This document shows, piece after piece, positions 4,040-62,799 of a stretch of 64,000 nt of DNA (the first letter of the stretch is position 1; the number at the start of each line of letters is the position of its first letter). Source of the stretch: Haloplanus sp. CK5-1 (GTDB taxonomy: Archaea > Halobacteriota > Halobacteria > Halobacteriales > Haloferacaceae); NCBI RefSeq assembly GCF_037201915.1, contig NZ_CP147505.1, positions 3,162,001-3,226,000 of the forward strand, read 5' to 3'. The notes under the pieces were generated by a model. It did no database searches. It saw nothing but the letters and a program-made list of their open reading frames with translations, and was not told the origin of the DNA. The position numbers and the translations under genes are program-made.

Positions 4040-4101
4040 GAGCGGAGGTTGGCAGCCGCGGAATAAATACTCCACGGCGAGTGCGAGGCCGAGGGACCGC
4101 A

Positions 4102-4245
4102 GGGAGCGAGGCCTCGAAGCGACACGGCGAGCGGAGCGAGCCGTGGAGCCGAGCCACGGAGCGCTGCGGTCCGAAGACCGACGGGAGCGAGGCCTCGAAG
4201 CGACACGGCGAGCGGAGCGAGCCGTGGAGCCGAGCCGCGGAGCGC
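4102..4245. repeat. Two 63-bp direct repeats, 81-bp period
   Basis: Copy 1 is at 4102-4164 and copy 2 at 4183-4245, with one visible mismatch (A versus G in the GAGCCRCGGAG part). Each copy holds an internal near-palindrome around CGAGCGGAGCGAG and a GGCTC...GAGCC-type arm, so each could fold. They fill the gap between rnz and the DUF460 gene. GGAGCGAG-rich intergenic repeats like these are common in haloarchaea and their function is unknown. Confidence 0.8.
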
Positions 4246-56698: not shown

Positions 56699-56804
56699 GG
56701 GCCCTTAGCTTAGTCCGGTTAAAGCCCCCGGCTCATACTGGTAGACGACTCCGTCGTCGCCATGGGACACCGGGTGATCGCTGGTTCGAATCCGGCAGGG
56801 CCCA
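56699..56804 (+). tRNA. Elongator tRNA-Met (anticodon CAT) with a 31-nt intron
   Basis: Acceptor arms GGGCCCT and AGGGCCC pair with discriminator A. The anticodon stem CCCGG/CCGGG encloses CTCATA-[intron]-A, anticodon CAT at 56734-56736. The intron is 56738-56768 at the canonical 37/38 site and contains a perfect GACGAC-TCC-GTCGTC hairpin. The T-arm TTCGAAT and 3' acceptor begin a seven-copy tandem array. Confidence 0.94.
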
Positions 56805-57612
56805 TCCCACTTTTTCCTCGGTCGTTTCACTCCCTCGCAAAAACGTGGGGAAAAAGACCGCAAGAAGGATTCGAGCCCAGAGGACGAACGAAGTGAAGTC
56901 CTCGCGGTTCGAATCCGGCAGGGCCCATCCCACTTTTTCCTCGGTCGTTTCACTCCCTCGCAAAAACGTGGGGAAAAAGACCGCAAGAAGGATTCGAGCC
57001 CAGAGGACGAACGAAGTGAAGTCCTCGCGGTTCGAATCCGGCAGGGCCCATCCCACTTTTTCCTCGGTCGTTTCACTCCCTCGCAAAAACGTGGGGAAAA
57101 AGACCGCAAGAAGGATTCGAGCCCAGAGGACGAACGAAGTGAAGTCCTCGCGGTTCGAATCCGGCAGGGCCCATCCCACTTTTTCCTCGGTCGTTTCACT
57201 CCCTCGCAAAAACGTGGGGAAAAAGACCGCAAGAAGGATTCGAGCCCAGAGGACGAACGAAGTGAAGTCCTCGCGGTTCGAATCCGGCAGGGCCCATCCC
57301 ACTTTTTCCTCGGTCGTTTCACTCCCTCGCAAAAACGTGGGGAAAAAGACCGCAAGAAGGATTCGAGCCCAGAGGACGAACGAAGTGAAGTCCTCGCGGT
57401 TCGAATCCGGCAGGGCCCATCCCACTTTTTCCTCGGTCGTTTCACTCCCTCGCAAAAACGTGGGGAAAAAGACCGCAAGAAGGATTCGAGCCCAGAGGAC
57501 GAACGAAGTGAAGTCCTCGCGGTTCGAATCCGGCAGGGCCCATCCCACTTTTTCCTCGGTCGTTTCACTCCCTCGCAAAAACGTGGGGAAAAAGACCGCA
57601 AGAAGGATTCGA
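56783..57612 (+). repeat. Seven-copy 123-bp tandem array of the tRNA-Met 3' half and trailer
   Basis: Units start at 56783 (inside the real tRNA), 56906, 57029, 57152, 57275, 57398 and 57521; the last diverges at about 57613. Each unit holds the T-loop and 3' acceptor strand (GGTTCGAATCC, then GGCAGGGCCCA), a CTTTTTCC/GGAAAAAG stem with a T5 run, an inverted T-arm GGATTCGA, and a GAGGAC/GTCCTC hairpin. Units look identical in sequence. Because 123 is divisible by three, several frames stay open, which creates false repetitive ORFs. Confidence 0.95.
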
Positions 57613-57935
57613 AGCAGGGCCACCCAGAATTTGCACGATGCTGGGCCACCGGGTTCGAACGTGTGACTCCCTGAAATACATATTTCCGCCTTTGAATATA
57701 TGAATATGAATGTCGATCAGCCTGGAGTTCAATCATACTGTGAATGCGGGTCGCCGCTGTCGTGCCTTCGCCGACGACCGAGAGCGATGCCTCCGTAATC
57801 ATTCGCTCGTTGTGGGGGCAACGCGTGGATCGTGATTGAGGGTGGATCCGATACCGAGCGAGACGACGGATAGACGACGCACGGTAGTGGTCGGTCGCGT
57901 CGTCGGAATCGAGACATCGGTAGGTCTCTGCCCGC
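57613..57935. other. AT-richer gap between the tRNA-Met array and the kinase remnant
   Basis: No convincing gene is seen in about 320 bp. The first 50 bp contain GCAGGGCCA and GGGTTCGAAC pieces that look like decayed tRNA T-arm and acceptor fragments. An AT-rich block (about 57676-57712) follows. A 30-codon frame from 57708 with a CECG knuckle is too short to call. Confidence 0.55.
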
Positions 57936-59311
57936 TCACGAGCTGGGATTCGCCACAACACTTTGATCTACACTTGGTAATTGGAACGTCAGCACGCTTC
58001 CCCGTGGGTCGTTATCACTAATCGTCAACTCCCCACCGAGCGTCGTTACCACCCAATTCATCATCCAAAGCCCGATACCGAGACTGTGCTGGAGCGGCGT
58101 CTCCTCTCTCGATTCGATCACACGCCGTTCGAGGTCCGGGATACCGGGACCATTGTCCGCTACGGATATATACACGTAATCGGGATCCGACTCCCGGTCA
58201 ATCGTCATAGTTACTTCTGGCGGTGACCGATCACCGTGGTCGACTGCATTCTCGACAGCCTCATCCATGGCTTGCTCGAACAGGTCTGCATTTCGAACAT
58301 AGATCGGCTCGTCACCATCGATCGATGTCGTGAGTTCTGCGTCCGAATATTGCCCCTGATACGCTTCGAAAAGCGCCTCGATATTGAGACGATCCCATCG
58401 CTGTTCGTCCGTCGGGTCGTAGATCTCGCGGATGTTGTCGGTCGTTCGCGCGATCTTATGCATCGACTTTGCTTGACGCCGAATTGCTTCGATCGACGCC
58501 TGTCGGGTTTCTGCGTCTATCTCGTCAGATGCTAACAGTTCTGCGTGACCGTCGATCGCGGTCACGGAGTTTCGCAGATTGTGCCGCACCACCCGGTTAA
58601 GCACATCAATCGTCTGTCTCGTGAGCATTTTCTCGCTGATGTCCTGCATGATAGCCACGAACTGCGTTATCTTCCCGTGCTTGCCCGTCGCAGGGATGAT
58701 CTTCAGTGTGACCTCGAACAGCTCTCCGTGCTTGGTCTGGTTCGTCAGTTCGGCGTCCCACACGTCGCCAGCCGTGATCTGCTCCCACAGGTCCGCATAG
58801 AACGCGTCGTCGTGTTGCCCGGATTTGAGAATGCGTGGATTGCGTCCGGTCGCCTCGGACGCCGTATATCCGGTCATCCGTTCGAAGACAGGGTTGACAT
58901 ACTGGATCGTCCCGTCCGGGTCGGTTATGAAAATGACTTTCTCAGATCCTTCAGCCGCCTTCTTAAACAGGGTGAGATCTTGTTTGAACCGCTTTTCGTC
59001 GGTCACGTCTTCCTGATAGCCGAGGTAACTGGTGACGGCCCCCGACTCGGCTCGAATCGGAACGATCGTCACGCGATTCCAGAACATCGCGCCTTCTTTT
59101 CGGTAGTTCCGGAGTTCGACGGTCACGGGCTCTTTGGCTTCGATTGCGGTTCGCATCTGTGCAACTGGCTCTTCACGTGTGGCGTCGCCCTGTAGGAACC
59201 GACAGTTTTGGCCGAGAATCTCGTCACGAGAATAGCCGGTGAGTTCGCAAAACCCATCGTTGACGTAAATCAGAGGGTTGTCGGGTTGAGATGGGTCTGC
59301 AATTGTGATAC

Positions 59312-59397
59312 CTATAGTAGCGTTTGTAACTGTCCGCACACCTGATCGAACGCAGTCATGCGATCAGGTGTGTGATGACTTACAAAGGCTACTATAG
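59312..59397. mobile_element. 86-bp hairpin element (MITE-like)
   Basis: The ends are inverted repeats, CTATAGTAGCGTTTGTAAC at 59312 and its near-complement ending CTACTATAG at 59397. A second nested pair CACACCTGATCG/CGATCAGGTGTG lies inside. The nested palindromes and small size resemble miniature inverted-repeat elements. It interrupts the kinase gene between the DEAP and GITIAD codons and supplies the first codons of the downstream frame. Confidence 0.75.
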
Positions 59398-59533
59398 CGG
59401 GGCTTCGTCCATTACTGTATTGCGGAGCAGACGCCCAACCGCAGAATCAGGATCAACAATTGGAAGCACAGAGGCCAGAACCTGTTGGGTGCCACCCCAC
59501 TGTATCAGTGAGTTCACGATGATAACCCGTTGA

Positions 59534-60602
59534 GAGGGTGTCATAGAACAGTTCGCATACCAAAGAGCAGGGTGAACGCTGAGGTGGAATGAGTTCAGCG
59601 ACCCTGCAAGATGATCCTTCGGTAGAATCGTTCTTCAATGCCGTGGAAACGGAGACGTTGGCGTTGTTCGAGCACCTCTCCTTCGAGTTTCTTGAAGGGT
59701 TCGACGTGTTCGCCCCGGCGGAGACGGGGCGAACACGAGATCTTGAGCCGCCCGAGATGATGCGTGGCTTTCTCCATTGCTATTACAAGAACATCGACGG
59801 TATCCGTCCGGTTGCACGAGAACTGAACAACACCGTTGTCTGGCTCAGCTGTAGCTTCGATCGACCGCCGTCGAGAGACGCGGTCGATCGATTCCTCACT
59901 GATCTTGAGCACGTTGTTGACCGGGTCTTCGACCATCTCGTCGAGCAGGCCGCCTTGCGGGGCCTGCTCGACTTGACGTATTCTATCGATTCAACCGACG
60001 TGAGAGCGATGCCCGCCGATCCAGACGCATCGAAGTGCTATGATCCAACCGATGACGAGTACTACTACGGCTACGGCTGCACGATCGTCTCAACCGGGCA
60101 AAAGATCCCGATTGCAGCCGAGTTCACCGAGAGCAAACAAGCACCAGAAGAGACGGCGATGCGCGTCACGCGTGACGCGCTCGCCGTCGGGAAACCGATG
60201 TGGATGCTTGGAGACAGTGCCTACGACACGCTCGACTGGCACGACCACCTGCTGGCCGCAGGGGTCGTGCCAGTCGCTCCGTACAATCCACGAAACACCG
60301 ACGACCCGAAAGATATCGAGTACAGGGTAGAAGACCGCATTGAAAAACACAGCAACGACGTTCAGCTGAAGCAATCAACGCTAGACGAGACGTACAACCG
60401 CCGGAGTGGCGTCGAACGAACCAACGAATCAGTCAAGGGCTGCGGCCTCGGGCGAACGCACGCCCGAGGCCGCGTCCATGCACGAGCGCAGGTGTTCCTC
60501 GCGTTGTGTCTGCGCCTCGTCGTCGCAATCACCAACTACGAACGCGGAGACAATCCGGGAAGCACAATCATCACGGTGTGAGAAGAGTTCTATGACACCC
60601 TC
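59534..60602. mobile_element. 1069-bp DDE insertion sequence with 16-bp terminal repeats
   Basis: Perfect 16-bp terminal inverted repeats, GAGGGTGTCATAGAAC at 59534-59549 and its complement at 60587-60602, flank one transposase gene. A 6-bp target duplication CGTTGA is present on both sides (59528-59533 and 60603-60608). Perfect ends and target duplication indicate a recent insertion. Confidence 0.92.
59589..60581 (+). CDS. DDE transposase (IS4/IS5 superfamily)
   Basis: A 330-residue transposase. The DDE residues are visible: Asp in YSIDSTDVRAM, Asp in MLGDSAYDTLD and Glu in NRRSGVERTNESVKG. The N-terminal region (1-130) is helical, as in haloarchaeal IS4/IS5-like enzymes. The frame is full length and undamaged, so the element may be active. 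The exact IS group was not determined from sequence alone. An alternative view as an ISH-type named element needs an ISfinder search. Confidence 0.9.
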   Translation: MSSATLQDDPSVESFFNAVETETLALFEHLSFEFLEGFDVFAPAETGRTRDLEPPEMMRGFLHCYYKNIDGIRPVARELNNTVVWLSCSFDRPPSRDAVDRFLTDLEHVVDRVFDHLVEQAALRGLLDLTYSIDSTDVRAMPADPDASKCYDPTDDEYYYGYGCTIVSTGQKIPIAAEFTESKQAPEETAMRVTRDALAVGKPMWMLGDSAYDTLDWHDHLLAAGVVPVAPYNPRNTDDPKDIEYRVEDRIEKHSNDVQLKQSTLDETYNRRSGVERTNESVKGCGLGRTHARGRVHARAQVFLALCLRLVVAITNYERGDNPGSTIITV

Positions 60603-60853
60603 CGTTGAGACTGATTGGCAGGCATCAGTAGTTCCACGGCGAGCGCCAACACGGGTTCGTCTTCAGCTTCGATTCGCGTCACTTGCTCCCGGAGCGTGGC
60701 GTGATACTCCGGCTTCACGATGTCCGTCAAAGATAGGCCGACAAGTTGGTCTTGAGACTCCGCCCCAAGAAGTGTACGGAACACGGGATCCGCATACGTG
60801 ATCTCCATACCCGAGTGGATCAGAAATGAGTCCGGAACACTCTTAGATGGCAT

Positions 60854-62130: not shown

Positions 62131-62799
62131 GTGCTCACCTTCGGTTCGCTCGCCCGCGCGGCGTACTGTCCGCGGCAGTGGTACTACGCACGGCGGGAAG
62201 GGGAGGACGACCGACCGCCGCCGGAGGTCCGCGACTGCCAGTCGCTGGCTTTCAGATACCCGACACTCAGGACGGCCGACGACGCGACGCTCAACGACGA
62301 ACCGATCGACGTGTCACCGGCGGCGTACCGGGCGAGACTGGATCGGCTGGCAAAACGAGAGGAGTGGCCAGGACTCGCCGATCCGGTGGCCCGCGAGGTT
62401 CATCTGGAGGGGAAGGAGTGTCGGGGTATCGCACACAAAATTGTCGAGGGGGAGGAGGGCGAGCCACCGACGCCGACCTTCGTCTCACCGGGACAGCCAC
62501 CCGAGAGGGGCGTGTGGCGCCCACAGCGGGTACGGGCAGTGGCGATGGCGAAGGCGCTCGCGTGGGAACGGGAGCAGACAGTGCCGTCGGCACTGGTGGA
62601 GTACCCGGCTCACGGCGTCGTCCGGCGGGTGGCGCTGACGACGCGCAACCGGGCGGCCTACCGGAAGACGGTCCGGACGGTCAGGGATGTCGACGGCCCG
62701 CCGCCACGAACCGACGACGAGGCCAAGTGCGACGCCTGCGACTATCGGGAGCGGTGTGGGGTTCGGACGCGGTCGCTGCGGTCACTCCTCGGTCTGTAG
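62131..62799 (+). CDS. Stand-alone Cas4-like iron-sulfur protein with degenerate nuclease motifs
   Basis: A 222-residue protein with Cas4/RecB-like layout. The N-terminal YCPRQWYY supplies the first cluster Cys (C13), and the C-terminal CDACDYRERC supplies three more (about C198, C201, C207), so a 4Fe-4S cluster is likely. The nuclease motifs look degenerate: where Cas4 has GxxD, this has GIAHK, and the E-x-K motif position reads VSPG. It is probably not an active exonuclease. No CRISPR array or other cas gene is in the window. The start is GTG at 62131. Confidence 0.78.
   Translation: MLTFGSLARAAYCPRQWYYARREGEDDRPPPEVRDCQSLAFRYPTLRTADDATLNDEPIDVSPAAYRARLDRLAKREEWPGLADPVAREVHLEGKECRGIAHKIVEGEEGEPPTPTFVSPGQPPERGVWRPQRVRAVAMAKALAWEREQTVPSALVEYPAHGVVRRVALTTRNRAAYRKTVRTVRDVDGPPPRTDDEAKCDACDYRERCGVRTRSLRSLLGL

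Follow-up and report, generated by a model that had tools for sequence, protein, structure and literature searches.

The 3′ end of the tRNA-Met (CAU) gene of Haloplanus sp. CK5-1 is repeated downstream in a perfect array of 123-bp units, and the array unit belongs to a widespread class of tRNA-tail hairpin cassettes in haloarchaea. The array lies within a 64,000-nucleotide stretch of contig NZ_CP147505.1 (positions 3,162,001 to 3,226,000, hereafter the window), from a genome assembled as a single contig of 3.24 Mb. It probably arose when one member of this haloarchaea-wide class was amplified locally and recently.

An original prediction from the letters of the window had proposed a seven-copy array starting inside the tRNA-Met gene, and this was borne out. 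Six full copies and 92 bp of a seventh occupy positions 56783–57612 (6 × 123 + 92 = 830 bp), beginning in the T-arm of the intron-containing gene. There are no mismatches between units, the six full copies being identical over 123 bp and the seventh (from 57521) over its first 92 bp, where it runs from a break in the antisense T-arm into a worn tail, GGATTCGAAGCAGGGCCACC. Tandem Repeats Finder (TRF) called the array at 56778–57612 with a period of 123, and the 22-nt tRNA tail had seven exact occurrences versus none in 100 shuffles.

Each unit carries the tail (GGTTCGAATCCGGCAGGGCCCA) followed by the motif TTTTTC (T5C), a spacer rich in inverted sequence, the antisense T-arm GGATTCGAGCC and a palindrome, after which the next tail begins. 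The T-loop, acceptor 3′ strand and T5 run had been recognised previously; the antisense T-arm and the hairpin that it forms are additions. In unit 1, pairing of the antisense and sense T-arms gives a hairpin of −32.4 kcal/mol (z −5.08). An Rfam search of the array returned only tRNA at E ≤ 1.

Cassettes at tRNA genes match their own gene

The cassettes were defined as 50–160 bp directly 3′ of a tRNA gene, ending in a copy of the gene's own 3′ end. The array has this form: directly 3′ of the gene, the tail of its own tRNA supplies one arm of a hairpin, the 3′ one. Within this genome, an own-tail copy (score ≥ 14) was detected within 300 bp after 16 of the 44 tRNA genes found, with about 1% expected from a control in which tails and flanks were swapped. 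Across six haloarchaeal genomes from four families, a copy of the last 14–24 nt followed 53 of 129 tRNA genes (~40%, swap null 1.8%), and in other archaea of the phylum one of 52. The typical copy extends from the base before the T-loop (G53) to the mature 3′ end of the tRNA, and 47 of 51 copies form the 3′ arm of a hairpin that pairs upstream (median z −4.9).

The 5′ arm of the hairpin is matched to the T-loop and T-stem of the same tRNA gene. The type of antisense arm agreed with the T-loop type of the tRNA in 38 cases and disagreed in two (Fisher p 1.6e-8). Arm cells with changes on both sides numbered 33, versus 9.9 after shuffling and beyond both controls, although the rows were selected for pairing, so this count is not proof alone. 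Where gene tails of the same amino-acid type differed between species, the copy tracked its own gene at 256 of 258 sites, a count from copies pre-selected for similarity to their own gene and from pairs that are not independent.

We searched whole genomes with a hairpin covariance model trained on haloarchaea, for which E-values are rough and into which a tRNA-only location was not built. The hairpin was found in 57 of 59 haloarchaeal genomes, with up to 39 matches per genome, against none among 50 other genomes from the phylum; it was kept in 26 of 28 genera. The two haloarchaeal genomes without a match (G016 and G044) also gave unusually few first-look candidates. In the genome of CK5-1, 20 of 21 matches at E < 1e-3 lay directly 3′ of a tRNA gene on the same strand. 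Among the matches listed for two other genomes, 25 of 26 and nine of nine lay 3′ of tRNA genes. A match in G046 (L254) adjoined no tRNA gene, is probably inside a protein gene and was counted as false. One cassette revealed a tRNA-Arg(CCG) gene absent from the Rfam-based list (G000:C1:2650980-2651060, L242).

The remaining match in the CK5-1 genome (2,052,491) adjoins an integrase gene and precedes a CBS-domain gene, 61 kb from tRNA-Val at 1,991,271. As the CBS-domain gene borders tRNA-Val and its cassettes in a relative (G006), and an integrase gene is adjacent, a large element has probably pushed tRNA-Val and its cassette apart. This segment (G000:C1:1991271-2052544; L245, L246, L003) has a tyrosine recombinase gene by the far tail and the same 408-amino-acid transposase near both ends.

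Turnover of arrays and mobile elements at tRNA tails

Arrays are not limited to tRNA-Met. The same genome has a perfect array of 65 bp × 7.5 after tRNA-Gly (100% identical; G000:C1:653201-653690, L038), a second cassette subtype in which the copied tail begins at the T-stem 3′ strand, as well as a perfect array of 92 bp × 2.2 at tRNA-Glu and two tails spaced 137 bp at tRNA-Lys. In other haloarchaea, arrays, near-perfect ones among them, occur at tRNA-Pro, Val, Arg, Gly, Gln and Ser.

Comparison of the tRNA-Met locus found zero to three tail copies in relatives, with one to three close together in Haloplanus relatives and two or three tandem tails in genera including Halorubrum, Natronosalvus, Halomarina, Halapricum and Natronomonas. 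An exact tail search of 194 genomes of the order, which variant tails would escape, found no other genome with more than two tRNA-Met tails. G005 and G007 each have a tandem pair of unlike units, and in G009 (L007, 1670-1722) the part of the hairpin that lies between the T-arm motifs runs the opposite way from that in other Haloplanus genomes, which shows inversion at these short inverted repeats. As copy number, mixed units and inversion all vary between species, the locus turns over, which supports the earlier proposal of a recombination hot spot, as does the use of the same site by SNJ2-like elements. The low tail number in relatives and the absence of mismatches here likewise support a very recent expansion or conversion.

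Archaeal viruses and plasmids preferentially insert at tRNA 3′ ends; SNJ2, a betapleolipovirus, integrates at tRNA-Met. Its attachment (att) site is short (13–14 bp) and located at the tRNA 3′ end (PMC8371274). The tRNA-Met gene of G006 is separated from a hairpin unit by a 6-kb element whose tyrosine recombinase is 69% identical to that of SNJ2, and a second element comes after that unit. SNJ2-like elements insert either at the tRNA gene or at a cassette copy. However, the viral attachment (attP) regions of SNJ2 and HHPV4 contain the short tail alone, with no T-arm copy and no hairpin, and a scan of viral contigs for the 16-nt tail gave three contigs with no hairpin in the flanks examined. 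Viruses use the tails, but the units are not viral remains, and a virus-derived origin was rejected on the hairpin-free attP stretches of SNJ2 and HHPV4 and flanks of the scanned contigs; the tails only happen to be SNJ2-like attachment sites. As in SNJ2-type integrated elements, direct repeats of the tRNA 3′ end stand on both sides of each unit, but no integrase lies inside the repeated or flanked segment, for which 123-bp units are too short; an integrase inside such a segment was seen only in separate elements in relatives. The earlier idea of a footprint of repeated integration therefore stands for the large elements that integrate here and not for the units, which form a separate hairpin class at many tRNA genes.

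The AT-rich mobile DNA previously noted after the array is an island from ~57625 to ~61230 that holds genes for a sensor kinase and a DDE transposase together with a repeat resembling a miniature inverted-repeat transposable element (MITE). No integrase or recombinase was detected in the island (57.6–61.2 kb) by open reading frame (ORF) list or Pfam. Within the window, the conserved element end adjoins the last tail and not the tRNA gene itself (Table 1). The 90-bp MITE-like repeat (59310-59398) has CTATAGTAGC ends and a long palindrome, adjoins the PAS-kinase gene and has close copies downstream of tRNA-Met in G009 (L007) and G005. The PAS-kinase gene seems interrupted (57936-60853), with the transposase (59589-60581) and the MITE-like repeat parting it from a PAS-like fragment at 60590-60853. 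Elsewhere in the window (4095-4245) is a palindrome-rich 81-bp repeat × 1.9 (95% match) with no link to a tRNA gene.

Table 1. Features of the tRNA-Met array and the adjoining island (window positions)
Feature	Position	Strand	Basis or remark
tRNA-Met (CAU) with intron, functional-looking	56699..56804	+	Rfam RF00005, 54.9 bits; missed by ARAGORN
Last 22 nt of tRNA-Met, start of unit 1	56783-56804	+	Sequence
Unit 1, 123 bp: tRNA tail, T5C, spacer, antisense T-arm, palindrome	56783..56905	+	Unit comparison
Unit 2, identical to unit 1	56906..57028	+	Unit comparison
Unit 3, identical to unit 1	57029..57151	+	Unit comparison
Unit 4, identical to unit 1	57152..57274	+	Unit comparison
Unit 5, identical to unit 1	57275..57397	+	Unit comparison
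Unit 6, identical to unit 1	57398..57520	+	Unit comparison
Unit 7, 92 identical bp, then break inside antisense T-arm motif TTCGA	57521..57612	+	Unit comparison
Degenerate eighth tail GGATTCGAAGCAGGGCCACC, at join to mobile-element end	57605..57624	+	Comparison with relatives
Terminator motif TTTTTC (T5C), directly after tRNA, in every unit	56811..56816	+	Sequence
Hairpin GGATTCGAGCC ... GGTTCGAATCC, 11 + 6 bp; 3′ arm is T-arm of next tail copy; repeats at +123, six in all	56867..56916	+	Fold; covariance model R1 matches
Conserved probable end of integrative element (~200 bp)	57625..57830	+	Right after tRNA-Met or its cassette in G001, G004, G006, G010
PAS-histidine kinase in island	57936..59339	-	Pfam PAS, HisKA, HATPase_c
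DDE transposase in island	59589..60581	+	PF01609
Cas4-like/DUF83 backbone gene right of island	62131..62799	+	PF01930; also downstream of tRNA-Met in G006, G011

Origin and maintenance of the array

A palindrome flanked by direct repeats is a well-known target of slippage and unequal exchange. The tail copies would act as direct repeats around such a palindrome, so that replication slippage or unequal recombination could duplicate or delete one unit at a time; if recent, this would account for the exact 123-bp steps and the perfect identity of the units. Conversion between gene and copy would keep copies identical to the gene and arrays perfect, and may explain the matching to the own gene. 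Transcription from the tRNA promoter probably does not reach the extra copies, because the gene is followed by T5C, shown to act as a terminator in vivo in Haloferax volcanii (PMC7237163). More broadly, and as a tentative proposal that we regard as a serious possibility, the cassettes would be lineage-wide cis elements at up to about half of haloarchaeal tRNA genes, with a hairpin built from, and continually re-matched to, the gene's own 3′ end, and with arrays as a product of expansion. They would be kept either by dedicated recombination or because they have a role in tRNA expression or in dealing with tRNA-targeting viruses.

Several points weigh against amplification as a full account. The copy number comes from one assembly of one isolate and its change is presumed, recombination and slippage cannot be told apart, and the tandem unlike units are not expected from simple duplication. 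Retention of the hairpin in 26 of 28 genera suggests a function that amplification does not supply. Nor does the mechanism extend to the origin of the cassette or to the spread of one hairpin family to ~20 different tRNA genes.

The strongest alternative, which we nevertheless consider unlikely, is site-specific insertion, with a tyrosine recombinase placing small circles at the T-loop/3′ end in an integron-like manner, every unit being a separate insertion and the hairpin serving as the folded recombination site. This would suit the unlike tandem units of G005 and G007, the inverted hairpin of G009, the use of the locus as an att site by SNJ2-like integrases and the extent of the copies, which run from T-loop to exact mature 3′ end in almost all cases. 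However, the window island lacks a recombinase, the attP of SNJ2 and HHPV4 is a short tail without a hairpin, the units hold no gene, and seven identical units require seven identical circles whereas duplication requires none. We give a little less credence still to the hairpin being a selected RNA or DNA element (a 3′ trailer structure, a terminator or a spare virus attachment site), with the array as a dosage variant. Its presence in nearly all haloarchaeal genomes (57/59) and the arm pairing kept with two-sided changes would fit such a role, as would the elements that have integrated at a cassette copy in this window and in G006 and G010, and hairpins occur upstream of termination sites in Haloferax volcanii (PMC7237163). 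Yet over half of tRNA genes lack the hairpin, among them paralogues within one genome, the tRNA-Met array sits behind T5C, and the last 8 nt of the copy are mostly outside the hairpin but conserved, which favours repeat homogenisation.

An assembly artefact with a wrong repeat number is highly improbable. Although the units are perfectly identical and their number comes from the assembly, the genome is a single contig, the whole 830 bp fits in one long read, and other tRNA genes have perfect arrays with different periods, which, like the arrays in other assemblies, argue for a real repeat. Least credible of all is a repetitive protein gene of 41 codons per unit: ORFs do span the array on both strands (56733-57623 (−), 56705-57961 (−) and 56845-57666 (+)), but a period divisible by three keeps any open frame open, and units elsewhere of 65, 92, 105, 113 and 137 bp keep no frame, hence protein coding was rejected. 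A CRISPR array was also rejected, as the whole 123-bp unit is identical with no variable spacer. The suggestion that the copies are decoys for tRNA 3′ processing enzymes, such as a mini-tRNA for tRNase Z, did not hold, since without the 5′ strands they cannot form the T-stem and acceptor stem, the tail is instead locked in the 11 + 6 bp hairpin, and the copies lie behind T5C.

Haloarchaea appear to ring their tRNA 3′ ends with custom-matched copies. If confirmed, the class would offer a natural archaeal system in which to measure gene conversion, slippage driven by palindromes and the expansion of repeats, help to account for some of the 'partial tRNA genes' and displaced att sites annotated in haloarchaea, and raise the testable question of why two fifths of tRNA genes keep an own-tail hairpin. 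The arrays are also candidate strain-typing loci.

Comparison with known systems

The open literature searched, which excluded subscription papers and supplements, yielded nothing that describes the hairpin class, and the class is apparently undescribed, a provisional conclusion. In Haloferax gibbonsii LR2-5, partial tRNA genes beside full ones are called remnants in the main text of the genome account (PMC7921747). They very probably belong to the same class, seen in one genome, whereas the hairpin, the matching to the own gene, the arrays and the haloarchaea-wide pattern were not found in that main text. SNJ2-type att sites also lie at a tRNA 3′ end, and a relative's SNJ2-like element sits at this very tRNA-Met, but the units have no integrase or viral gene. 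Palindrome-associated transposable elements (PATEs), MITEs and small mobile repeats of Haloquadratum are, as the cassettes are, short, palindromic and non-coding (PMC3119063). Those repeats are however scattered and mobile, while cassettes are nearly confined to the 3′ side of tRNA genes, each matched to the gene beside it. The integron attC site is comparable in its imperfect inverted repeat, conserved ends, variable middle and tandem units; here, no integron integrase was found in the window island (the region searched for IntI), there are no cassette genes, and the ends are a tRNA T-arm.

The tyrT distal repeats of E. coli comprise 3.14 copies of 178 bp, each with 19 nt of the tRNA 3′ end. 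The tyrT-type repeat of Salmonella varies in copy number between strains and is a 175-bp variable-number tandem repeat (VNTR; PMC2658671). As in our array, the tyrT repeats, source of rtT RNA (RF00391), are tandem, follow a tRNA gene directly and each contain its 3′ end. A covariance search with RF00391 gave no match in the array or genome with a positive E. coli control, and no matched hairpin is known in the E. coli repeats. They differ in phylum, period and sequence, and are found at one locus against about two fifths of tRNA genes here. Of the known systems, the E. coli repeats come closest to the array in architecture, but they are not of the same family.
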